Source: Metabacillus litoralis
GTDB lineage: Bacteria; Bacillota; Bacilli; Bacillales; Bacillaceae
Direction of reading: 5' to 3'
Length of the DNA: 64,000 nucleotides
NCBI RefSeq assembly: GCF_003667825.1
Contig: NZ_CP033043.1
Location: forward strand, 993,001 to 1,057,000
The notes beneath the pieces are model-generated. The model saw nothing but the letters and a program-made list of their open reading frames with translations, was not told the DNA's origin and made no database searches. Numbering within the stretch: the stretch's first letter is position 1; each line of letters starts with the position of its first letter. The translations under genes were made by a program, and so were the position numbers. This document shows, piece by piece, positions 30,529 to 41,049 of this stretch.

Positions 30529-30638
30529 ATATCCTCCAGATAAAAGGTGCAATACATACTTTGTTTTTTCACTTTTTAGTTATTGTATTTCAGGTTTAAA
30601 TAAATAATAACAGATAATTGTGAATGGGGGATGTGAGG

Positions 30639-31871
30639 ATGATTGAATTACTTAAAGATAAAACCTATTTAAGGTATTGGTTGGCAGTTGTTGTGTCATT
30701 TTTAGGAGACGCAATGACGATAACGACTGTTTCATTCCTTATTGGTACAACTGTGGAAAATCCATTGTTAATCGGATTTGTATTTGTTGCTCAATTACTT
30801 CCTGCTGTAATTCTTGGGCCATTAATAGGGCCTTTAATAGATAAATATTCAAGTCGGAAAATGATGATTTTTTCGGATGTTTTTCGATGCTTCATGGTAT
30901 TAAGTATGATTTTATTTGTTGATAAACCACTCGTTTTGATTTGTCTCACTCTTTTACAAGGGATAGGTACAGCGTTTTTTGAACCAGCGAGAATGGCATC
31001 AATACCAATAATAGTTGGAATAAATCGTATACCAAGTGGTATTGCTTTGTTTCAAACAACGGTTGCTGTTATCAAATTAGTAGGACCTGTACTCGCTGGC
31101 TTATTATTAGCTTTTCAATCGCCTAGTTTAGTATTTATACTTGATGCATCATCCTATATTATTTCTGCATGTTTAATATTCAGCTTAAAAATTTTAAAAG
31201 CTCAAAAAAAAGATCATAACACAAATTCATATTTTAATAGTCTTTGGACCGGAGTTAGGGAGATGATCAAAACTTCAATTCTATTATTTATGATACTTTT
31301 GTTGTTCCCGGTTCTGATTGGTTATGGTATGTTTTTAACAAATTATAAAGCTGTATTGCTTCAATATTTTCAAGTATCTAATATAGAGTTCGGAATTTTA
31401 GAAGGGATATTTGCATTTGGAACGGTAATCGGGGCAATCGTAGGTTCTTATGCTATGAAAAAAATTGTACATTACCAATTATTATATATTGCAATTGGTA
31501 CACTTGGTCTAGGTGTTGTCAGTGTTTATGGCATTATAAAAGTAGACGTAATGTTTAGTCAGTCTGTCTTCTTTATACTAGGGGGATGGAGTTTCATTAC
31601 AGGCTTAGCCAATGCTTTATTGATGGTCCCGACAAGTTCGATCTTTCTACTACATTTACCTGAGGCTATTAGAGGAAGAGGAACGGCCATTTTTTATTCT
31701 ATTTTCAATTTGTTTTTATTAGCCGGTACCCTTCTTGGGGGCTTTATTGCAAGTTCAATCAATATCCTGCTTGCGTTGATCCTATCTGGAGGGATACTAC
31801 TTATCACAACCATCTCTTACCCAATATATAAAAATACATCATTGATGAGGAAGGTGAAAAAACAGCTATAA
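30639..31871 (+). CDS. MFS transporter
   Basis: 410 residues from ATG 30639 (GGGGG 9 nt upstream). About 12 hydrophobic helices. It resembles the drug/macrolide-type MFS group: YLRYWLAVVVSFLGDAMTIT, the loop motif GPLIGPLIDKYSSRKMMIFS and RGRGTAIFYSIFNLFLLAG. Divergent from the SgrR-like regulator, which suggests substrate-induced expression. Substrate unknown; sugar or drug efflux is likely. Confidence 0.88.
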   Translation: MIELLKDKTYLRYWLAVVVSFLGDAMTITTVSFLIGTTVENPLLIGFVFVAQLLPAVILGPLIGPLIDKYSSRKMMIFSDVFRCFMVLSMILFVDKPLVLICLTLLQGIGTAFFEPARMASIPIIVGINRIPSGIALFQTTVAVIKLVGPVLAGLLLAFQSPSLVFILDASSYIISACLIFSLKILKAQKKDHNTNSYFNSLWTGVREMIKTSILLFMILLLFPVLIGYGMFLTNYKAVLLQYFQVSNIEFGILEGIFAFGTVIGAIVGSYAMKKIVHYQLLYIAIGTLGLGVVSVYGIIKVDVMFSQSVFFILGGWSFITGLANALLMVPTSSIFLLHLPEAIRGRGTAIFYSIFNLFLLAGTLLGGFIASSINILLALILSGGILLITTISYPIYKNTSLMRKVKKQL

Positions 31872-32010
31872 CAAGGTGAATTAATTATAGATACAATACA
31901 AATATATGTGACTGGCTTTATTTTTATAGGTGTCGTAAATATGTATCACATGTGACATAGTCGTGTTATAATTAGTGACATGGTTTTTAAATCTATCGGA
32001 GCTGATACAG

Positions 32011-33192
32011 ATGAATACACTAGAAGTTATGACAAATTTAAATAAAGTCATCCCCTATTTCCAAGCCATTTTCAGTGCAGATAGTCATACAATTATCGGT
32101 TATGAGGTTTTGGCTAGAATCGAAACAGATGATGGGATAGAGAGTTTAGGTCCTTTTTTTCATGACCCGACGATACCAATGGAATTTAGTCTTGAGGTGG
32201 ATGCATTTATCCATGAAAAGGCGTTGGAGGTCATACTTAATAAAAAAGAAGATGTTCTACTGTTTCTAAATGTGAATGCAAATTATGTGATGATTGATAA
32301 TGGGGAAGGTCTTCTTACCAGGCTTTTAACCTTTCGTGAACGTGGTCTTATGCTTTCAAAAATAGTAATAGAATTAACTGAACATAATGTTAATGGTGAT
32401 ATGTTAATGGTGGCCACACTATGTCAAAAAATAAAAGCTTTAGGTGTAAAGATTGCAATTGATGATGTTGGGGTTGGAGCAAGTAATTTAGATCGAATTG
32501 GAATGCTTGAGCCAGACATATTAAAAGTAGATATTCATGCGTTAAAAAGCAATCAACAAACAACGTCTTATGATGGGGTATTGTACTCGTTATCTTTACT
32601 AGCTAGAAAAATAGGGGCAGAGTTATTGTTCGAAGGTATTGAGAATAGTGATCAATTTTACTATTCATGGAGTAGAAATGCAAGGTATTATCAAGGATAC
32701 TTCTTTTCAAAACCTCAAGGTATATTAATAGAAAAAAACATCCTTAAAGAACGATTTAAGAAAGATATCTATCATTTTATAGAACTGGAACGTAAGAAGT
32801 ATAAGTTAGAATATCAGTTATCTCATCAGTTAAATGAAAAATTAAACTCTTTAACACAGTCTGTACCAATTGATCATAATTTAGATGAATGGTTATATAA
32901 GATAGCTGTGAACCTAGAAGAAGAGTGTTTTAGAATCTATATAACGGATAAAAATGGGTACCAAATGACTTCGAACGGAATGAGAGTTAATAAAGATTGG
33001 ATGCTCTTACCTGCTTTAAAAGGGAGTAATTGGAGCTGGCGACCCTTTTTTATTGAAAATCTTATAAGGATGGATGAGGAGAACAAAGGGATTTTATCTG
33101 ATGTATATAGTGATATTGAAACAAGTGAGAGTGTCCGAACTTTTTCTTTTCCTATTGATTATCAGCTTTACTTATTTATTGATATACGCTAG
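32011..33192 (+). CDS. ykuI: YkuI-like EAL-domain protein
   Basis: 393 residues from ATG 32011 (CGGAGCTGATACAG). The N-terminal EAL domain (about 15-240) has EVLAR in place of EAL, ELTEHN, IDDVGVGASNLDRI and LFEGIEN; a C-terminal YkuI_C domain (about 280-390; NWSWRPFFIENLIRMDEENK, TFSFPIDYQLYLFIDIR) is decisive. YkuI binds cyclic-di-GMP; as I recall its phosphodiesterase activity was weak or undetected, so it may be a receptor. Gene stands alone with its own terminator. Confidence 0.92.
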   Translation: MNTLEVMTNLNKVIPYFQAIFSADSHTIIGYEVLARIETDDGIESLGPFFHDPTIPMEFSLEVDAFIHEKALEVILNKKEDVLLFLNVNANYVMIDNGEGLLTRLLTFRERGLMLSKIVIELTEHNVNGDMLMVATLCQKIKALGVKIAIDDVGVGASNLDRIGMLEPDILKVDIHALKSNQQTTSYDGVLYSLSLLARKIGAELLFEGIENSDQFYYSWSRNARYYQGYFFSKPQGILIEKNILKERFKKDIYHFIELERKKYKLEYQLSHQLNEKLNSLTQSVPIDHNLDEWLYKIAVNLEEECFRIYITDKNGYQMTSNGMRVNKDWMLLPALKGSNWSWRPFFIENLIRMDEENKGILSDVYSDIETSESVRTFSFPIDYQLYLFIDIR

Positions 33193-33231: not shown

Positions 33232-33362
33232 AAATTTTTAAAAATATTTCTTAATGTTATCGAACATATATTTTCCATTTTTAAGAAAAGAGGTAAAATG
33301 ACATAAGATATTATTCCTAGATCATACAAAAAAGTACGTTTTAAATAATGAGGTGCAGCATA

Positions 33363-34352
33363 ATGAACCGTAAAGTGAAAATAGTTGGCATGGGTTCGTA
33401 TTTACCAAAAAGATTAATAGAATCAACAGAAATTGATAAAATGATTGGCGCAGAGCCAGGTTGGTCTGAGAAAAGATCAGGAGTTAAACAACGCTATTTT
33501 GTAAATGATGAAACCGCTACATATATGGGGGCAAAGGCGGCTAAAAAAGCAGTTGAGAATGCAGGTCTTTGTCTATCTGACATTGATTGTATTATTAGTG
33601 CAAGCGGGACAAATGAGCAGGCTATTCCATGTAATGCCTCTTTAATACAAAAGCATTTGGGACTTCAAAGCTCTGGAATTCCTTGTTTTGATGTTAATTC
33701 AACCTGTTTAAGCTTTGTATCTGCACTCGATATGGTGTCATATGCTGTACATGCTGGTAAATATGAAAACGTGTTAATCGTCTCTTCTGAAATTTCTTCC
33801 GTTGGACTAAATTGGAAACAACGTGAGAGTAGTATATTATTTGGTGATGGAGCAGTAGCGATGGTTTTATCAGCTGCAACCAATACTTCCAAAATTTTGA
33901 GTTCACATATGGAAACATATAGTGAGGGAGCTCATTTATCAGAAATAAGAGGTGGAGGAACAAAGCTTCATCCACGTATTTATAGTGAACAAACAGCTGA
34001 AGAGTTTTTATTTGATATGGACGGAAGAGCTATTTTTAAATTATCGTATAAACTTTTACCAGATTTTTTGGATCGATTATTTAAAGGGACTGGTTTAACA
34101 ATTGCAGATATCAATATGGTTATTCCTCATCAAGCAAGCGCATCTGCTATGAAGATTATTCGAAAAAAACTAGGTGTAAAAGAAGAACGATTTATGAACA
34201 TTATTGATCGTTATGGGAACATGATTGCAGCATCCATTCCGCTTGCTCTTCATGAAGCGGTAAATCAAGGTCGTATTAATAGAGGTGATACTATTTTACT
34301 GTTAGGGACTTCGGCTGGGCTTTCTATTGGAGGTATCTTAATTGAATACTAG
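33363..34352 (+). CDS. 3-oxoacyl-ACP synthase III-like (KAS III/FabH family)
   Basis: First gene of the biosynthetic operon. 329 residues from ATG 33363 (GAGGTG 7 nt upstream). The thiolase-fold triad is intact: Cys115 in DVNSTCLSF, His256 in VIPHQAS, Asn286 in YGNMIAASIP. It should condense an acyl-CoA or acyl-ACP with a malonyl or second acyl unit. The sequence has features of secondary-metabolite KAS III enzymes, and housekeeping fabH is not normally in such company. The stop overlaps the next start by 11 bp. Confidence 0.88.
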   Translation: MNRKVKIVGMGSYLPKRLIESTEIDKMIGAEPGWSEKRSGVKQRYFVNDETATYMGAKAAKKAVENAGLCLSDIDCIISASGTNEQAIPCNASLIQKHLGLQSSGIPCFDVNSTCLSFVSALDMVSYAVHAGKYENVLIVSSEISSVGLNWKQRESSILFGDGAVAMVLSAATNTSKILSSHMETYSEGAHLSEIRGGGTKLHPRIYSEQTAEEFLFDMDGRAIFKLSYKLLPDFLDRLFKGTGLTIADINMVIPHQASASAMKIIRKKLGVKEERFMNIIDRYGNMIAASIPLALHEAVNQGRINRGDTILLLGTSAGLSIGGILIEY

Positions 34353-35484
34353 AAAAAGAGTTTTAGTAACTGGTGCCAGAGCCCCTGTTGCTCTCCATTT
34401 GTGTCGGTTAATGAGTCAGGCAGGGTTCGAAGTTTATGCAACTGATTGTATTTCATATCCATTAACAAAGGTTTCTAATAGTATAAAAAAATTCATCTTT
34501 ACTCCTTCACCCAAGAAAGATACGAAAAGTTTTATAAAGTCCTTAATCAACATAATTGAGCAACAAAAAATTTCATTAATCATTCCAACATCTGAAGAAA
34601 TTTTTTATATTTCTAGATATAAAGATCAACTGACCCCGTTTTGTCATGTGTTTGTTGATGACTTTGCAAAATTAAACCTTCTACATAATAAATATGAGTT
34701 TATTCAACTTGTGAAGAACTTGGGTTTTGAAGTGCCAAGGACAGCTTTGCTATCTAATCATGTAAATTTGGATCAATTTGAAGACGAATCTGCTCTTTTA
34801 AAAAAGGTCTATTCGAGATTCTCTGAATCCATAATTTTTCTACAATCTGTTGGGCAAATACCTAACCATATAAAAAAGGGTGGAAGCTGGCTTGTTCAAG
34901 AAAAAATCGTAGGTAAGCAATATTGTTCATATACCATTGCCAATGATGGAAAAGTACTTGCGCATTCTACTTACAAAAGTGAATTCACAGCAGGTTTAGG
35001 TGCAACTCTCTCATTCAAACATGAAAGCAGACCTGATATTGAACGGTTTGCACAGGTTGTGGTTGAAAAACTGAATTTCTCAGGACAGATATCTTTTGAC
35101 TTTATCATACATGAAAATGGAGTCGCCTTTCCGATAGAATGTAACCCTAGAGCGACAAGTGGTCTCCATTTATTTGATAAGAAATTGGCTTATCTATTCA
35201 CAGATGCAAAATCAATTCTTTATCCTAGGAAGGATAAAAAAGAAGCCATAAAGTTGGCCGTTTTTTTATATGGATGGAAACAAGTAAAAAGTCTACGTCA
35301 ACTTAGGAGATTGTTAGAAGTATTTTTTTCATATAAGGACATTACGTTTACAAGCAATGACCTTGGGCCTTACTTTTATCAACTAATTAGTTTATATAAG
35401 ATGTGGAAGGAAAGCAGAAGAAATAAAGTTTCTCTTATGGAACAATCCACCATAGACATAAGTTGGGATGGTGAAACGATTTGA
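34342..35484 (+). CDS. ATP-grasp carboxylate ligase
   Basis: 380 residues from TTG 34342 (GGAGGT 6 nt upstream inside the KAS III gene). N-terminal RVLVTGARAPVALHLCRLMS is a pre-ATP-grasp nucleotide fold. The ATP-grasp region follows with GGSWLVQEKIVGKQYCSYTI and the metal-binding FPIECNPRATSGLHLFD. Such enzymes join a carboxylate to an amine or thiol through an acyl phosphate. Substrates unknown. Translational coupling to both neighbours (11-bp and 4-bp overlaps). Confidence 0.85.
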   Translation: MNTRKRVLVTGARAPVALHLCRLMSQAGFEVYATDCISYPLTKVSNSIKKFIFTPSPKKDTKSFIKSLINIIEQQKISLIIPTSEEIFYISRYKDQLTPFCHVFVDDFAKLNLLHNKYEFIQLVKNLGFEVPRTALLSNHVNLDQFEDESALLKKVYSRFSESIIFLQSVGQIPNHIKKGGSWLVQEKIVGKQYCSYTIANDGKVLAHSTYKSEFTAGLGATLSFKHESRPDIERFAQVVVEKLNFSGQISFDFIIHENGVAFPIECNPRATSGLHLFDKKLAYLFTDAKSILYPRKDKKEAIKLAVFLYGWKQVKSLRQLRRLLEVFFSYKDITFTSNDLGPYFYQLISLYKMWKESRRNKVSLMEQSTIDISWDGETI

Positions 35485-36473
35485 ATGTATTAGTAACTGG
35501 AGCTACTGGTTTTTTAGGAAGAAAAGTAGCGCTTCATCTTGCTTCGATTGGATACAATGTCACAGGGACAGGACGAAACCAACTAGTAGGGGACTCTCTT
35601 TCTAATTCTGGGATTCAATTTAAAGCATGTCATTTGGAAAATCGTGATGATATCATGATGTTGTGTGAAAATCAACATTTTGTTATTCATTGTGGAGCGC
35701 TTTCATCTCCATGGGGCAAGTATAATGACTTTTATCAAGCGAACGTTATTGGTACAAAAAATGTAATTGATGGCTGTAAAAAGTGGAATGTGAGTCGCTT
35801 GGTTCATGTTTCAACACCAAGTTTATATTTTCACTATGACGAGCGTAAAGATGTGAAAGAAGATGATAGTTTACCGGAAAAATTCGTTAACCATTACGCA
35901 AAGACTAAATTTCTTGCAGAAAAAGAAGTAGACCAAGCTTTTATAGATGGTTTATCAACCATTACGATAAGGCCCCGAGCACTATTTGGTCCTGGTGATC
36001 AGGCTATTTTTCCAAGACTTATCAAGGTTTGTGAAAAGGGAATGTTCCCTAAAGTCGGGTCTGGTGATGTTGTTATTGATATGACTTATATAGATAATGC
36101 TGTAGATGCAATCCTTTTATGTATGAACTCTGGATCTGAAACGTTGGGACAAAAATATAATATTACAAATGGTGAAAGAGTTCAGTTATATTCTATGATT
36201 GATACAGTAATGAAACGACTAGGCAGGTCGTTTACTTATAAACAGATTTCATTTAAAAAAGCTTTTCATCTAGCAACATCTTTGGAGTATGTATCGAAAC
36301 TTCTTCTTTTTAGAAAAGAGCCCTTGCTCACAAGATATACAGTTAGTGTCCTTTCTCAATCTCAAACACTATCAATTGAAAAGGCAAAGAGTGAATTAGG
36401 ATATAAGCCAGCTGTTTCTGTTGAAGATGGGACGAAGGAATTTGTAGATTGGTGGAAGTCACATGTCCATTAA
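35481..36473 (+). CDS. NAD-dependent epimerase/3-beta-HSD-like reductase
   Basis: 330 residues from TTG 35481, overlapping the ligase stop by 4 bp. Extended short-chain dehydrogenase: Rossmann motif NVLVTGATGFLGRKVALHLA, catalytic Tyr-x-x-x-Lys in NHYAKTKFLAEK, and RPRALFGPGDQAIFPRLIKV. It resembles OleD-type and 3-beta-hydroxysteroid enzymes that reduce a beta-keto acid, which suits the KAS III product. Role in this pathway is inferred from context. Confidence 0.87.
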   Translation: MNVLVTGATGFLGRKVALHLASIGYNVTGTGRNQLVGDSLSNSGIQFKACHLENRDDIMMLCENQHFVIHCGALSSPWGKYNDFYQANVIGTKNVIDGCKKWNVSRLVHVSTPSLYFHYDERKDVKEDDSLPEKFVNHYAKTKFLAEKEVDQAFIDGLSTITIRPRALFGPGDQAIFPRLIKVCEKGMFPKVGSGDVVIDMTYIDNAVDAILLCMNSGSETLGQKYNITNGERVQLYSMIDTVMKRLGRSFTYKQISFKKAFHLATSLEYVSKLLLFRKEPLLTRYTVSVLSQSQTLSIEKAKSELGYKPAVSVEDGTKEFVDWWKSHVH

Positions 36474-37314
36474 CATGATGAAAATTTTTGCTTGTGGGTA
36501 TTGTACACATCCAGAAAAAATTGTGAACCCTCAAAAAACATTAAAAACAATAAAATTTCCAGCTACAGTAGCTTTGTTAAAACATCCAACTATTGGCTAT
36601 ATTCTTTTTGATACAGGTTATGCTTCTTATTTTCTAGAAGCTACTAAGGTATTCCCTTATTCTATTTACGCAAATTTAACACCTGTTTTCTTCTCAGAAG
36701 AACGATCGATTAAAAATCAATTAAAGAAACAAGACATAAATCATAATGACATTAAAATCATCATTCTTTCTCATTTTCACGGAGATCATGTTGGAGGATT
36801 AAAGGATTTCCCGAACGCAAAAATAGTAACTTTTAAAAAAGCTTATAACCACATCAAAAAACTTAGCAAGCTGAGAGCCTTAACTAAAGGCTGCTTGCTT
36901 GATTTACTTCCTCAAGATTTTCAAGAAAGAGTTTCTTTTATTGATGAAAAACCTTTACTACCTTTAGGGGAAAGTTATCATCCTTTCACGGGAGGTTTTG
37001 ATGTGTTTGGAGACGATTCTATAATTGCTGTAGACTTAACAGGTCATGCTATAGGTCAGCTAGGAATCTTCGTGAACTTGAGTAGTGGTAAAAAAATCTT
37101 TCTTTGTGCTGATGCTGTTTGGCAAAGTACCGCTTTTGAAAATATGATTTTCCCTCATCGTATAGCCCATTTATTAATTGAAGATATTGACGCTTATAAA
37201 CAGAATCTTAAAAAGTTACATCTATTATCTAAGCAAAATCAACATATTGAAATATTACCAACTCACTGCCAAAAAACGTGGGAGATCGCAAAAGAGGGTA
37301 TCATTTATGAATAA
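36463..37314 (+). CDS. Metallo-beta-lactamase-fold hydrolase
   Basis: 283 residues; ATG 36463 overlaps the preceding stop by 11 bp (ATG 36475 or 36478 are other choices). The metal site is ILSHFHGDHVGGL (HxHxDH), with later ligands in VDLTGHAIGQLG and FLCADAVW. The group includes lactonases and thioesterases, which would fit release or opening of an acyl intermediate. Substrate unknown. It is in the position that the hydrolase OleB fills in ole clusters, though unrelated in fold. Confidence 0.87.
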   Translation: MSINMMKIFACGYCTHPEKIVNPQKTLKTIKFPATVALLKHPTIGYILFDTGYASYFLEATKVFPYSIYANLTPVFFSEERSIKNQLKKQDINHNDIKIIILSHFHGDHVGGLKDFPNAKIVTFKKAYNHIKKLSKLRALTKGCLLDLLPQDFQERVSFIDEKPLLPLGESYHPFTGGFDVFGDDSIIAVDLTGHAIGQLGIFVNLSSGKKIFLCADAVWQSTAFENMIFPHRIAHLLIEDIDAYKQNLKKLHLLSKQNQHIEILPTHCQKTWEIAKEGIIYE

Positions 37315-38641
37315 ATTGTTATTACTCAAACAGTATTTTCTTACAAAGTATGGTAGGAGGTTTACTTCTCGGGAAAAATTGCTTGCTTTTCACGACAAAA
37401 AAATGAAAAAACATATAAAAATTGTTTTAAAGCATTCTACCTTTTATAAAAAACTCTATCAAGATGAAAGGTACCATCATGACTGGACATCCCTTCCTAT
37501 CATTACGAAATCTGATATGATGGACTCTTTTAATGAGTTAAATACCGTCGGAATTAAGAAAGAAAAAGCTTTTCAGTTAGCTTTTGATGCGGAAGAAACG
37601 AGGGATTTTTCCCCTAGAATAGGAAATGTTTCAATAGGTCTTTCTTCTGGAACAAGCGGAAATCGAGGCTTATTTCTAGTAAGCAATAGAGAAGAGGCAA
37701 TGTGGGCTGGAACGGTTCTTGCGAAGATGTTACCAAGCAGTATTTTCAGAGAGCATAGGGTTGCCTTTTTTCTAAGGGCAAATAGTAATCTTTATGAATC
37801 GACAGAAAGCGGAAAAATTATCTTTCATTATTTTGATCTGTTAGATTCATTTCCTAAACATATAGAACGATTAAATCAGCTTAAACCTTCAATTATCATT
37901 GCGCCCCCTTCGATGTTAAGAATGATTGCTACATGGAAGCATAAACAGATTATTAGTATTTCTCCAGAAAAGATTATATCGGTAGCAGAAGTACTAGAAG
38001 ATCTTGATAGAACATATATAGAACACATTTTCCAACAAACTCTGCATCAAGTATATCAAGCGACAGAAGGATTTTTAGCTGCTACCTGTTCATTTGGAGT
38101 TCTTCATATGAATGAGGATATAATCGCGGTTCAAAAAGAGTATCTTAACAAAGAAAAGGGAATATTTGTACCGATTATTTCAGACTTTACTAGGAAAACG
38201 CAACCGATTATTCGATATCGTTTAAATGATATATTAATAGAGAAAAAGACAGCATGCCCTTGTGGGTCACATTTTTTAGCATTAGAACGGATAGATGGGC
38301 GTTGCGATGATCTTTTTTATGGGAAAAAATTATTAACAAATGAAGAAATATGTTTATTCCCAGATTTCATTAGAAAATCTATCATGATTGCATCAGATCA
38401 GATTTTAGAATATAAGGTTATGCAGCGGGAGTTCAACTTAATAGAGATTAAGTTGAAGGTAGAAAGTGATGAAGAAGTAGTTAAAGAACTTGTTTTAGCT
38501 GAGTTACAAAAATTGTGGAAACATGAACAATTATTAATTCCACAGTTTCACTTCACACCTTATGACATAGTTACGTCAGACCGAAAGTTAAAACGAATTG
38601 AAAATATGATGAAGGGTAAAAGTAATGATTCATTTATATAA
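37307..38641 (+). CDS. Adenylate-forming enzyme (F390 synthetase-related)
   Basis: 444 residues from ATG 37307 (GAGGG upstream; overlaps the hydrolase stop by 8 bp). It belongs to the PaaK/CapK-like AMP-forming group: LSSGTSGNRGLFLVS (phosphate loop), YQATEGFLAATC, and TRKTQPIIRYRLNDILIEKK followed by the zinc-type CPCGSH. It should activate a carboxylate as AMP ester. The family form with these neighbours recurs in Bacillaceae in my memory, but no product is known to me. Confidence 0.85.
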   Translation: MNKLLLLKQYFLTKYGRRFTSREKLLAFHDKKMKKHIKIVLKHSTFYKKLYQDERYHHDWTSLPIITKSDMMDSFNELNTVGIKKEKAFQLAFDAEETRDFSPRIGNVSIGLSSGTSGNRGLFLVSNREEAMWAGTVLAKMLPSSIFREHRVAFFLRANSNLYESTESGKIIFHYFDLLDSFPKHIERLNQLKPSIIIAPPSMLRMIATWKHKQIISISPEKIISVAEVLEDLDRTYIEHIFQQTLHQVYQATEGFLAATCSFGVLHMNEDIIAVQKEYLNKEKGIFVPIISDFTRKTQPIIRYRLNDILIEKKTACPCGSHFLALERIDGRCDDLFYGKKLLTNEEICLFPDFIRKSIMIASDQILEYKVMQREFNLIEIKLKVESDEEVVKELVLAELQKLWKHEQLLIPQFHFTPYDIVTSDRKLKRIENMMKGKSNDSFI

Positions 38642-39758
38642 TGCTGATAATTTTCATACAATTGATTGGTTTTCTAAGCGAAACGGACAGTTTTTAAAGA
38701 CTTACTTTGAGCCTTTAATAAAATATGAGATTCCCTATTTCATTGAAAATGTTCATTCGAAGATTTATTTGTTAGAAGTAGGTGATCTTCTTTTGCCGGT
38801 TTCTGTAACTGACCAACAGTATAAGGATTCATATGTTGCTTCGCCTTATACTCATTATATTAGCTATGCAAAAGAAGAGTTATGGGAGCTAAAGAACAAG
38901 GCGCTTGAAGAGCTTCTTCGTCCTGTAATCGGGATGATGGGACAGCTTCTTCGAAAGAGTAACATGAACAAAGTTGTTATTGTTAATAATTGGCTTTTAT
39001 CAACAAATCTATTTGAATCAACTTTGTCTTTTAATCAAGTGCAGAGAATCACAGATTTTTTAGCTAGGGAGTTTCCTAAGCACACGATCTTGTTTCGATC
39101 GATTACAAAGAATTTGCATGAAAATATGATGAAATCGTTTGATACAGTTGGATATAAAAGAATAATGTCACGGTCTATCTATCTATTTAATCCTGAACAA
39201 AAGCTCACTAAGCAACAACTAAAAAACCTCTATCAAGACGAAAAACTGATCAAAAAGCATCAGTATAAAATTAGAGATGTAAGTATAGAAGATTGTGATC
39301 TTATTTTGCGTTTGTATTTAGAATTATATATACAAAAGTATTCCACTAATAACCCTCAGTTTACATCAGAGTTCATTCGTCATGCGTATAAAAGTAAGTT
39401 ATTAACCTTTAAAGTGGTTTGTAAAGGTGATCAAATAGTAGGTGCTATAGGATTTTTCATCCAAGGAAAGGTGCTGACGACCCCGATTTTAGGCTATAGC
39501 ATAAAGTTGGAGAAACATGCTGGGTTATACAGGGTTCTTTCATTCCTTATTACGAAAGAAATTATGAACAATCATTATATCGGGCATCGTAGTGCTGGGG
39601 CGGGAGAATTTAAAAGAAAGCGCGGTTCCATTCAACAGATTGAATATACATATTTTTATCAAAAACATCTGCCTATGACTCAGAGATGGGGGTGGAATTT
39701 GCTCAAAAATATAATGGATCTTGTTGTCGAACCATTAGCTAAGAAAAAACAATTTTAA
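38625..39758 (+). CDS. Acyltransferase-like protein (GNAT fold)
   Basis: 377 residues; ATG 38625 overlaps the preceding gene by 17 bp. The C-terminal half (about 210-350) has a GNAT-like pattern: KIRDVSIEDCDLILRLYLEL, LLTFKVVCKGDQIVGAIGFF and HRSAGAGEFKRKRGSIQQIE. The N-terminal half is unassigned. Probably transfers an acyl group to or from the pathway product. Assignment is less certain than for its neighbours. Confidence 0.65.
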   Translation: MIHLYNADNFHTIDWFSKRNGQFLKTYFEPLIKYEIPYFIENVHSKIYLLEVGDLLLPVSVTDQQYKDSYVASPYTHYISYAKEELWELKNKALEELLRPVIGMMGQLLRKSNMNKVVIVNNWLLSTNLFESTLSFNQVQRITDFLAREFPKHTILFRSITKNLHENMMKSFDTVGYKRIMSRSIYLFNPEQKLTKQQLKNLYQDEKLIKKHQYKIRDVSIEDCDLILRLYLELYIQKYSTNNPQFTSEFIRHAYKSKLLTFKVVCKGDQIVGAIGFFIQGKVLTTPILGYSIKLEKHAGLYRVLSFLITKEIMNNHYIGHRSAGAGEFKRKRGSIQQIEYTYFYQKHLPMTQRWGWNLLKNIMDLVVEPLAKKKQF

Positions 39759-39852
39759 CCTTTTGAATAAGCCTTACTTTAATTACCATCGCTACTTCAA
39801 AGAGTTATTTGTTACTATTTTAAAAGAGTTTGCCACAAAAGGAGTGAGTACC

Positions 39853-41007
39853 TTGAAAAAGCAATATCTTTTAATGATAGTAGCTGTTATCTTGTTTGCA
39901 GGAGGATTTTTTTCAGGCGTTCTCTTCTCGAATATAGAACGACAAAACCAAACTAACGATCAGTCTAAACAAACTGAGAATTTATCTAAATCGATAAAAC
40001 AACCGCATCTGAAAAAAATTCCGGATGTGAAGGAATCCAAGCCAAAAGTGTTAATAGGCTATGTTCAAGATTTTAGAGATCCAGAAACAATCGACTTTTC
40101 TTCACTAACGCACGTTGTCTATTCCTTTGCCCATCCAACCAAAGATGGAAGTATTTTATTAAACGGAGGAACGGAGCCAACAAATTTAAAAAAGTTAGTA
40201 AAGCGCGCACATAATCATGATACAAAAGTTTTGCTGGCCGTTGGTGGTTGGTACCATATTGAGGGCGGCGAATCGTATGATTATTTTAAAACGGCCATTT
40301 CTTCGGAAACTTCTAGAACTAAATTAATAAATGAACTACTAGCTATAGTGGATAGGGAGCAATTAGATGGAATAGACATCGATTTTGAGCATCCACGTTC
40401 ACAAGAAGATGCCGACCAACTGTTAGAATTTACGAAGCAATTGAGCAATAAATTGCATCAAAAAAAGAAACAGCTCACAATTGCTGTCTACTCAAAAATT
40501 CACAGTGTAGCAGGTACAGAAATTCAATCAGTTGTATTTCATCCTGAAATGTTTACCTATGTAGATTATGTGAATATTATGGCTTACGATGGCCAATGGG
40601 ATGGGGAGTACAATGCAGCGAATTTAGCTCCTTATTCATTTATAGAAAACATTGTGAAATATTGGGGAGTACTTTTTGACAGTAATAAATTACCACGTGA
40701 AAAACTGGTGCTGGGTGTTCCTTATTATGCTCAGCCTGAAGATCCATCAATTAAACAAATGTCCTTCGGGGCAATTATTGCCAACAATCCTAAATTTGCT
40801 CATCAGGATGCAGCACAAGTAAATGGAACAACATATCATTATAACGGCATTCCCACTATAGAGAAAAAAACCATGCTTGCTATAGATCAAGAATTTGGAG
40901 GCATGATGATATGGGAGATGGGACATGATGCATCTGGAGATTATAGCTTAACAACAGTCATATCACAGCTGTTAGAAGATGAAAAATTGTTAGTAAGAGA
41001 AGAATAA
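39853..41007 (+). CDS. Membrane-anchored glycoside hydrolase family 18 protein
   Basis: 384 residues from TTG 39853, chosen for AGGAG 8 nt upstream; the frame from 39763 has no such site. N-terminal helix YLLMIVAVILFAGGFFSGVL anchors it; the GH18 barrel (about 65-370) has the catalytic DGIDIDFEHP (DxxDxDxE), HVVYSFAHPTKDGS, VNIMAYDGQWDGEY and GMMIWEMGHD. Likely cleaves chitin-like or peptidoglycan glycans at the cell surface. It ends the operon but its link to the pathway is unclear. Confidence 0.88.
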   Translation: MKKQYLLMIVAVILFAGGFFSGVLFSNIERQNQTNDQSKQTENLSKSIKQPHLKKIPDVKESKPKVLIGYVQDFRDPETIDFSSLTHVVYSFAHPTKDGSILLNGGTEPTNLKKLVKRAHNHDTKVLLAVGGWYHIEGGESYDYFKTAISSETSRTKLINELLAIVDREQLDGIDIDFEHPRSQEDADQLLEFTKQLSNKLHQKKKQLTIAVYSKIHSVAGTEIQSVVFHPEMFTYVDYVNIMAYDGQWDGEYNAANLAPYSFIENIVKYWGVLFDSNKLPREKLVLGVPYYAQPEDPSIKQMSFGAIIANNPKFAHQDAAQVNGTTYHYNGIPTIEKKTMLAIDQEFGGMMIWEMGHDASGDYSLTTVISQLLEDEKLLVREE

Positions 41008-41014
41008 ATGCCTT

Positions 41015-41049
41015 ATACACGTTCATCAAATAAGATGAACGTGTTTTTC
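41015..41049 (+). terminator. Biosynthetic operon terminator
   Basis: ACACGTTCATC-AAATAA-GATGAACGTGT followed by TTTTTCTT. Confidence 0.9.

Follow-up and report, generated by a model that had tools for sequence, protein, structure and literature searches.

MxnB and CorB of the myxopyronin and corallopyronin pathways are ketosynthases that fuse two polyketide chains. The substrates of the reductases OleD and sterol-4-alpha-carboxylate 3-dehydrogenase (NSDHL) are acids with a substituent at the alpha carbon and an oxo or hydroxy group at the beta carbon, simple beta-ketoacyl-acyl carrier protein (ACP) reductases are classical short-chain dehydrogenases, and the lipstatin (Lst) pathway also adds an amino acid. 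Relatives of several of these enzymes are combined in a six-gene operon of Metabacillus litoralis, located in a stretch of 64,000 nucleotides (positions 993,001 to 1,057,000 of contig NZ_CP033043.1, assembly GCF_003667825.1; hereafter the window) of a genome that consists of one contig of 5.23 Mb. The operon is a real, dedicated and widely shared unit, undescribed within the literature searched. It possibly directs the formation of a two-tailed lipid with a polar head, a reading to which we assign somewhat less than an even chance. Six open reading frames on the + strand, at 33363–39758 of the window, make up the operon:

33363..34352, + strand: KAS, ketosynthase; ATG start at 33363 behind GAGGTG, with a further in-frame ATG at 33348
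34342..35484, + strand: GRASP, ATP-grasp ligase (PRK06849), TTG start
35481..36473, + strand: SDR, extended short-chain dehydrogenase related to OleD and NSDHL, TTG start
36463..37314, + strand: MBL, lactonase-type hydrolase of the metallo-beta-lactamase fold
37307..38641, + strand: ADEN, adenylate-forming enzyme (TIGR02304), F390-synthetase-related and PaaK-like, ATG start
38625..39758, + strand: GNAT, double-GNAT protein with a FemX/MprF-like fold

Successive genes overlap by 11, 4, 11, 8, and 17 bp, in agreement with the overlaps of 4–17 bp given in a preliminary description of this DNA, and because of these overlaps the six genes are probably co-translated. The same description had proposed a single pathway of lipid-type chemistry, with KAS, SDR and ADEN as parallels of OleA, OleD and OleC and with MBL in place of the OleB hydrolase. 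The pathway proposal is supported by the analyses below; the Ole parallel is supported for SDR, and not for the other three proteins.

KAS matches the NCBIfam model PRK07204 with 537 bits (cut-off 402) and also exceeds the cut-off of the generic model PRK09352 (274 vs. 249 bits). Its triad Cys115, His256 and Asn286, which corresponds to that of OleA, is kept in 74 of 74 operon KASs; in this and all following residue counts, rows with stops or of out-of-range length were excluded first. The position of the OleA glutamate (Glu117, before a conserved proline) is occupied by Ile in 61 and by Leu in 13 of the 74 sequences. Against the chains which we take to be OleA of X. campestris (3row and others), the KAS profile scored 96 bits, as compared to 297 bits for MxnB (4v2p), 287 bits for CorB (4yuc), and 241 bits for the FabH protein of Aquifex (2ebd). 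Because the glutamate is replaced throughout and the OleA score is low, KAS is by its sequence not an OleA-type enzyme; OleA was judged by these profile scores and the Glu position, as the trees described below hold no OleA sequence. The residue before the conserved proline is reported to be Glu in OleA and PpyS (E105) and Val94 in MxnB (PMC4578411).

The sequence identity of KAS is 40–42% to MxnB and CorB, and 27–33% to four FabHs. In a 28-row tree, the operon KAS was sister to MxnB/CorB, apart from Aquifex FabH and three FabH-like proteins of the same genome. A 44-row tree contained the earlier rows and 16 MxnB-like proteins hand-picked from the 120 listed of 1016 matches. Here, the operon clade (support 98/92) was the sister of the MxnB-like clade (100/99) and not nested inside it, and the union of both was separated from four FabH-type rows with 100/100 support. 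A special closeness of KAS to MxnB and CorB alone was rejected, the operon clade being sister to the wider MxnB-like clade. The reported placement of MxnB and CorB within the FabH clade (PMC4578411) fits the present result. The genome encodes four further ACP_syn_III_C proteins, three of which are 27–30% identical to KAS and fall into the FabH clade. KAS is not the only FabH-type protein of the genome, and the refuting case named in the preliminary description, that it might prove to be the only housekeeping fabH, does not apply.

Some of the proteins retrieved are of interest in their own right. Two ketosynthases of the KAS III type (P0130 and P0132), from Bacillus sp. FJAT-26377 and from a record named Paenibacillus, share 64% identity with MxnB; both were placed in the 44-row tree. 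Compared with the operon KAS, they stand nearer to the enzymes of pyrone-antibiotic formation, and they may mark myxopyronin-like clusters in Bacillota. Among the matches listed, there are also many uncharacterised MxnB-like ketosynthases (P0135–P0241) with 46–53% identity to MxnB, a few of which are named as proteins of Chloroflexota, Planctomycetota or Myxococcota.

KAS might be an ordinary malonyl-extending relative of FabH, in which case SDR, MBL and ADEN would make and activate a beta-hydroxy fatty acid that GRASP and GNAT would convert to an N-acyl peptide, i.e., a lipopeptide or biosurfactant formed without a nonribosomal peptide synthetase (NRPS). The PRK09352 score agrees with such a single-chain product, and the EryCIII-like glycosyltransferases of two loci (see below) recall rhamnolipid-type glycosylation. 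However, the conserved columns of KAS favour MxnB over each of the four FabHs by 2:1 to 4:1. The operon KASs have 94 conserved columns, at 69 of which MxnB carries the same residue; CorB does so at 71, and the four FabHs at 56, 51, 42, and 42. The one-to-one comparison of MxnB-only with FabH-only columns gave ratios of 25:12, 29:11, 36:9, and 35:8. In a first count, 18 positions were shared only with MxnB and CorB and 5 only with all four FabHs; this count was discarded because it set a near-identical pair against four diverse proteins; the one-to-one recount is weaker and points in the same direction. Thr316 of KAS, which aligns with Thr322 of MxnB, is kept in 71 of 74 sequences, while the four FabHs have Phe or Met. 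Since, moreover, the substrates of OleD/NSDHL-type reductases are alpha-substituted acids and not simple beta-ketoacyl-ACP, we consider a single-chain product unlikely. Thr322 of MxnB has been described as lying near the point where the two substrate tunnels meet (PMC5724707), and the Ile/Leu residue together with Thr316 may open a second tunnel in KAS.

The nearest characterised KASs being MxnB and CorB, and MBL being nearest to lactonases, fusion of two beta-ketoacyl chains to a lactonised alpha-pyrone, as in myxopyronin, was also considered; MBL and SDR would then open or reduce the pyrone, and the head-group enzymes would decorate it. However, the operon contains no polyketide synthase (PKS) or carrier protein that could supply beta-keto chains, and the conserved OleD/NSDHL-like reductase suggests that the beta-keto group is reduced before lactonisation could occur. 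PRK07204 is the best NCBIfam model of MxnB as well, which scores below its cut-off (323 vs. 402), yet this separates the two groups incompletely: among four other operon KASs, those of L078 and L097 (L numbers denote loci) passed, and those of L019 (288) and L091 (350) failed. On balance, an alpha-pyrone appears very unlikely.

The best NCBIfam model of SDR is OleD, with 237 bits, although the cut-off of 580 is not reached, and its best solved relative is NSDHL (145 bits). The GxxGxxG and YxxxK motifs are kept in 75 of 75 sequences. Two independent enzymes, SDR and KAS, thus point to the same intermediate, since an alpha-substituted beta-oxygenated acid is what a chain-fusing KAS would be expected to yield. 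A protein that clusters with a classical short-chain dehydrogenase occurs near the operon in 26 of the 88 loci compared below (Pfam was checked for one of them).

In MBL, the seven metal-ligand positions (HxHxDH-H-D-H), which correspond to the metal site of N-acyl homoserine lactone (AHL) lactonases, are kept in 72 of 72 sequences. The protein is a distant relative of these enzymes, as its score of 92 bits against the AHL-lactonase model of NCBIfam is far below the cut-off (390). Trp220, likewise present in 72 of 72, takes the place of a Tyr in two aligned AHL lactonase chains; the Tyr three residues after the bridging Asp is a functional residue of AHL lactonases. No link of MBL to OleB chemistry was found.

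ADEN belongs to TIGR02304 (567 bits, cut-off 252). It showed no Pfam match at 0.001, and no OleC-named model was among its seven NCBIfam matches, the presence of an OleC model in NCBIfam not having been checked. It aligns over the PaaK core (68 bits to 4r1l) and has the C-x-C-G motif, but reached only 28 bits with the PaaK model TIGR02155. Lys427 and most motif positions are kept in 83 of 83 sequences, and Arg305 in 75 of 83. ADEN is accordingly described as PaaK-like and not as a counterpart of OleC. The roles of the kept residues in KAS, SDR, MBL, GRASP and ADEN are presumably those of the same residues in the respective families.

These data bear on an Ole-type route to a beta-lactone or olefin, in which KAS would form a 2-alkyl-3-oxo acid, SDR would reduce it, ADEN would close the beta-lactone, and MBL would open or process it, with GRASP and GNAT in the parts that LstE and LstF play in lipstatin formation. 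OleD is the nearest model of SDR, and the four activities of OleA–D are also represented, in kind, in the minimal core found in six loci. Absence of the OleA glutamate from all 74 KASs, the PaaK-like ADEN without an OleC-named match, and the lack of an OleB-type gene among the six (MBL has a different fold) argue against this route, which we regard as quite unlikely. A full set of OleABCD homologues was rejected on residue and family evidence, while the parallel of activities remains; the Ole comparison is thus partly supported: it fits the kind of chemistry favoured here, but KAS and ADEN are not members of the Ole families. Clusters of oleACD are described as likely producers of beta-lactones (PMC7064751).

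GRASP matches PRK06849 (423 bits, cut-off 406), and its fold resembles those of PylC, GAR synthetase and PurK, with the motif residues retained; Lys154, Asp253, Glu266, Asn268 and Arg270 are kept in 65 of 65 sequences. The sixth protein had been called an acyltransferase in the preliminary description. Its predicted structure, however, is a double-GNAT fold as in FemABX proteins and aminoacyl-phosphatidylglycerol synthases, closest by Z score to Sbb17/Sba18, FemX, and MprF, and lacks the canonical acetyl-CoA loop usual for acyl-CoA-dependent enzymes. By its best fold matches, GNAT would therefore resemble aminoacyl-tRNA-dependent transferases. The sequence identity to FemABX, MprF and Sbb17 is 7–12%. 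No Pfam or NCBIfam family was assigned to GNAT at E 0.001. With E values of up to 1, FemAB_like matched 4 and Acetyltransf_6 matched 18 of 38 GNAT members; of these two, the GNAT of the window matched only Acetyltransf_6 (E 0.044, below its cut-off). A sequence search of the PDB with GNAT returned nothing relevant, with one chance match at E 0.088, and a PHROGs search with three proteins gave no match.

For comparison of gene neighbourhoods, 88 loci were selected by similarity to ADEN: the best 80 of at least 529 confirmed ADEN relatives from a scan of a genome collection, seven further loci, and the window. Within 7.5 kb of ADEN, MBL was present in 81, SDR in 80, KAS in 77, GRASP in 70, and GNAT in 56 loci. 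The exact order KAS-GRASP-SDR-MBL-ADEN(-GNAT) was found in 63 of the 88 loci, 46 with and 17 without GNAT; six had KAS-SDR-MBL-ADEN only, and the remainder were variants or partial. Gene order is conserved more than by chance, and co-conservation of the genes, on which the preliminary description had made its proposal depend, is borne out. Nearly all of the 63 loci belong to Bacillota. They include L097, from a metagenome-assembled genome (MAG) of Sericytochromatia, and L091, from an alphaproteobacterial MAG, and none of the nine cyanobacterial loci. Three of the 63, L079, L094 and L098, have an SDR match of no more than 180 bp. The ORF listing of L097 suggested GRASP-SDR and MBL-ADEN fusions, which were rejected as read-through of other frames in GC-rich DNA. 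In cyanobacteria, the operon genes are interrupted or scattered. A search of eight cyanobacterial genomes in which KAS and mostly SDR do not adjoin ADEN located KAS in five and SDR in six, three of these SDRs being those already known to adjoin ADEN (L068, L071, and L075); in one genome (G474), neither KAS nor SDR was found.

Across the phylum, TIGR02304 occurs rarely, in 9 of 398 genomes. It is common in the home genus, with 16 of 21 genomes, and elsewhere in the family it was found in none of 59 (80 family genomes searched, yielding the same 16 matches). KAS is present in 17 of the 21, and KAS and ADEN agree in presence or absence in 20. The sole mismatch is G406, a draft of 460 contigs in which KAS and GRASP are adjacent near the low-numbered end of a contig. 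KAS, ADEN, GRASP and GNAT are all missing from four of the 21 genomes (G401, G412, G416, and G417), and two (G402 and G411) have KAS and ADEN while lacking both GRASP and GNAT. GRASP and GNAT were each found in 15 of 21 genomes, three of the GNATs being only 34–37% identical.

In four relatives the operon looks disrupted, GRASP being affected most often. The GRASP match contains two in-frame TGA codons in G413 and one TAA codon in G405, and begins only at residue 109 in G398; in G400, ADEN matches only from model position 125, GNAT is in two pieces, and KAS and GRASP form one frame of 710 amino acids. Paenibacillus bouchesdurhonensis (L054) has a second KAS copy 5' of a full operon. Two draft genomes contain distant ADEN relatives (L023:12553-13944 and L024:8252-9670; 33% identity), each followed by a protein of about 405 amino acids, with the rest of the operon absent.

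The putative head-group genes GRASP and GNAT accompany ADEN together in 52 of the 88 loci; 18 loci have GRASP only, four GNAT only, and 14 neither. Glycosyltransferase genes adjoin core genes in five genomes of two phyla, four of them with GT21. GT21 and EryCIII-like glycosyltransferases are encoded behind ADEN in Paenibacillus caui (L104), an EryCIII-like enzyme in a 2.1-Mb Bacilli genome (L019), and GT21 directly behind KAS in Planktothrix (L110) and Oscillatoriales (L111) and one gene before SDR in Chamaesiphon (L075). The GT21 proteins are 32–33% identical between the phyla and 58–60% and 86% within cyanobacteria; the two EryCIII-like proteins share 38% identity. Searching all fetched loci from L018 on with these genes by tblastn revealed no further genome. 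At E 1e-25, neither GRASP nor GNAT was found in any of the five glycosyltransferase-bearing genomes. That search covered 14 genomes with cyanobacterial queries and detected GRASP in four (two of these being matches of only 33–34%) and GNAT in four; none of the positive genomes belonged to Bacillota, for which its sensitivity was uncontrolled. Four core-only genomes (L025, L026, L046, and L055) likewise showed neither GRASP nor GNAT, and had no such glycosyltransferase in their fetched flanks. Overall, most species appear to have an amino-acid-like head group, and a few a sugar.

Other accessory genes vary between loci. Rieske oxygenases accompany L078, L068, L082 and L092 (by Pfam for three of them), and L078 also has an ABC transporter. 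L097 contains an AMP ligase with a DIP2-like end, and L091 an MFS-acyltransferase-AMP-ligase fusion. A protein of about 290 amino acids adjoins GT21 in L075 (1324–2193) and L111 (4215–5090); the two are 41% identical, and that of L075 has no Pfam match. Together with the head-group genes, these accessory genes fit a lipid whose hydroxyl and carboxyl groups can be modified.

For the two-tailed lipid, the substrates, the order of steps and the product are inferred by us from the observed enzyme families, motifs, gene order and KAS lineage. KAS would load one acyl chain on Cys115 and fuse it with a second, probably beta-ketoacyl, thioester to an alpha-branched beta-keto acid or thioester. In an OleD-like step, SDR would reduce the beta-keto group, giving a beta-hydroxy acid; MBL would release the free acid by hydrolysis of a thioester or lactone, and ADEN would activate the carboxylate as an adenylate or CoA ester. 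GRASP might then couple an amino acid or amine, and the FemX/MprF-fold protein GNAT might attach an aminoacyl (or acyl) residue to the head. These last two steps might, in a small number of lineages, be replaced by a glycosyltransferase of the GT21 and/or EryCIII-like type. The evidence reaches as far as the enzyme classes, and two-chain lipid chemistry is the favoured reading of them. More doubtful is the wider proposal that the operon represents an unrecognised class of two-tailed lipids shared by Bacillota and Cyanobacteria. Such lipids would contain mycolate- or ceramide-like alpha-branched beta-hydroxy acids, formed by an MxnB/CorB-lineage ketosynthase together with an OleD/NSDHL-lineage reductase, with no PKS or NRPS genes in the operon. 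Their heads would be exchangeable, being added mostly by GRASP and an aminoacyl-tRNA transferase, and in a few cases by enzymes of the ceramide glucosyltransferase family. A full-text search of open-licence papers retrieved no description of the operon or its product, consistent with the statement in the preliminary description that no product was known.

Downstream of GNAT, two further features were noted:

39763..41007, + strand: GH18 glycosidase with an N-terminal hydrophobic anchor; TTG at 39853 is the better-looking start
41017..41044, + strand: terminator-like hairpin of 11 pairs, 3' of the GH18 gene

The gap between GNAT and the GH18 gene is 4 bp, or 94 bp with the TTG start, and in this lineage the transcription unit may extend to the GH18 gene and end with it. 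The hairpin is weak evidence by itself, as a scan found seven terminator-like sites vs. 4.2 expected from shuffling. A promoter scan was uninformative (36 found vs. 33.3 expected). GH18 homologues occur near the operon in nine of the 88 loci including the window, all of Bacillaceae. Just 5' of the operon (30624–33192 of the window), an MFS exporter and a YkuI-type EAL protein are encoded; L030, L032, and L033 also have this pair in front of the operon.

If the two-chain reading is correct, the role of chain-fusing ketosynthases extends beyond a handful of routes to antibiotics, signals and olefins: they would drive a small-molecule or membrane-lipid pathway that is widespread, occurring in bacilli, paenibacilli and brevibacilli as well as in some cyanobacteria. 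The families PRK07204, PRK06849 and TIGR02304, which now bear generic or "hypothetical" names, would gain a role. The apparent swap of amino-acid-type and sugar-type head genes predicts that the product is a lipid acid whose carboxyl or hydroxyl group is free. With only six genes and no megasynthase, the whole operon is easy to express and test.

The operon proteins thus resemble several known systems in part. ADEN shares the core alignment and C-x-C-G motif with the PaaK family, but forms a family of its own. MBL has the fold and metal-ligand positions of the AHL lactonases AiiA, AttM and GcL, from which its low model score and Trp220 set it apart. GNAT, a putative user of tRNA by its fold, differs from FemABX, MprF and Sbb17 in its very low sequence identity and its location in a lipid-type operon. 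Like the OleABCD and Lst systems, the operon combines a ketosynthase of the KAS III type with a reductase resembling OleD, a hydrolase and an adenylating enzyme; it differs in that KAS is not OleA, ADEN is not OleC, MBL is found for OleB, and an ATP-grasp ligase and a FemX-fold protein are present where Lst has an NRPS and a formyltransferase. The nearest characterised relatives found for KAS are MxnB and CorB, which share its Cys-His-Asn triad, a hydrophobic residue instead of the OleA-type glutamate, the Thr at the second-tunnel position, and the CLSF and GGG motifs. In contrast to their clusters, however, the operon lacks PKS and NRPS modules, its KAS is partnered by SDR, MBL, ADEN, GRASP and GNAT, and it is spread over Bacillota and, loosely arranged, Cyanobacteria.

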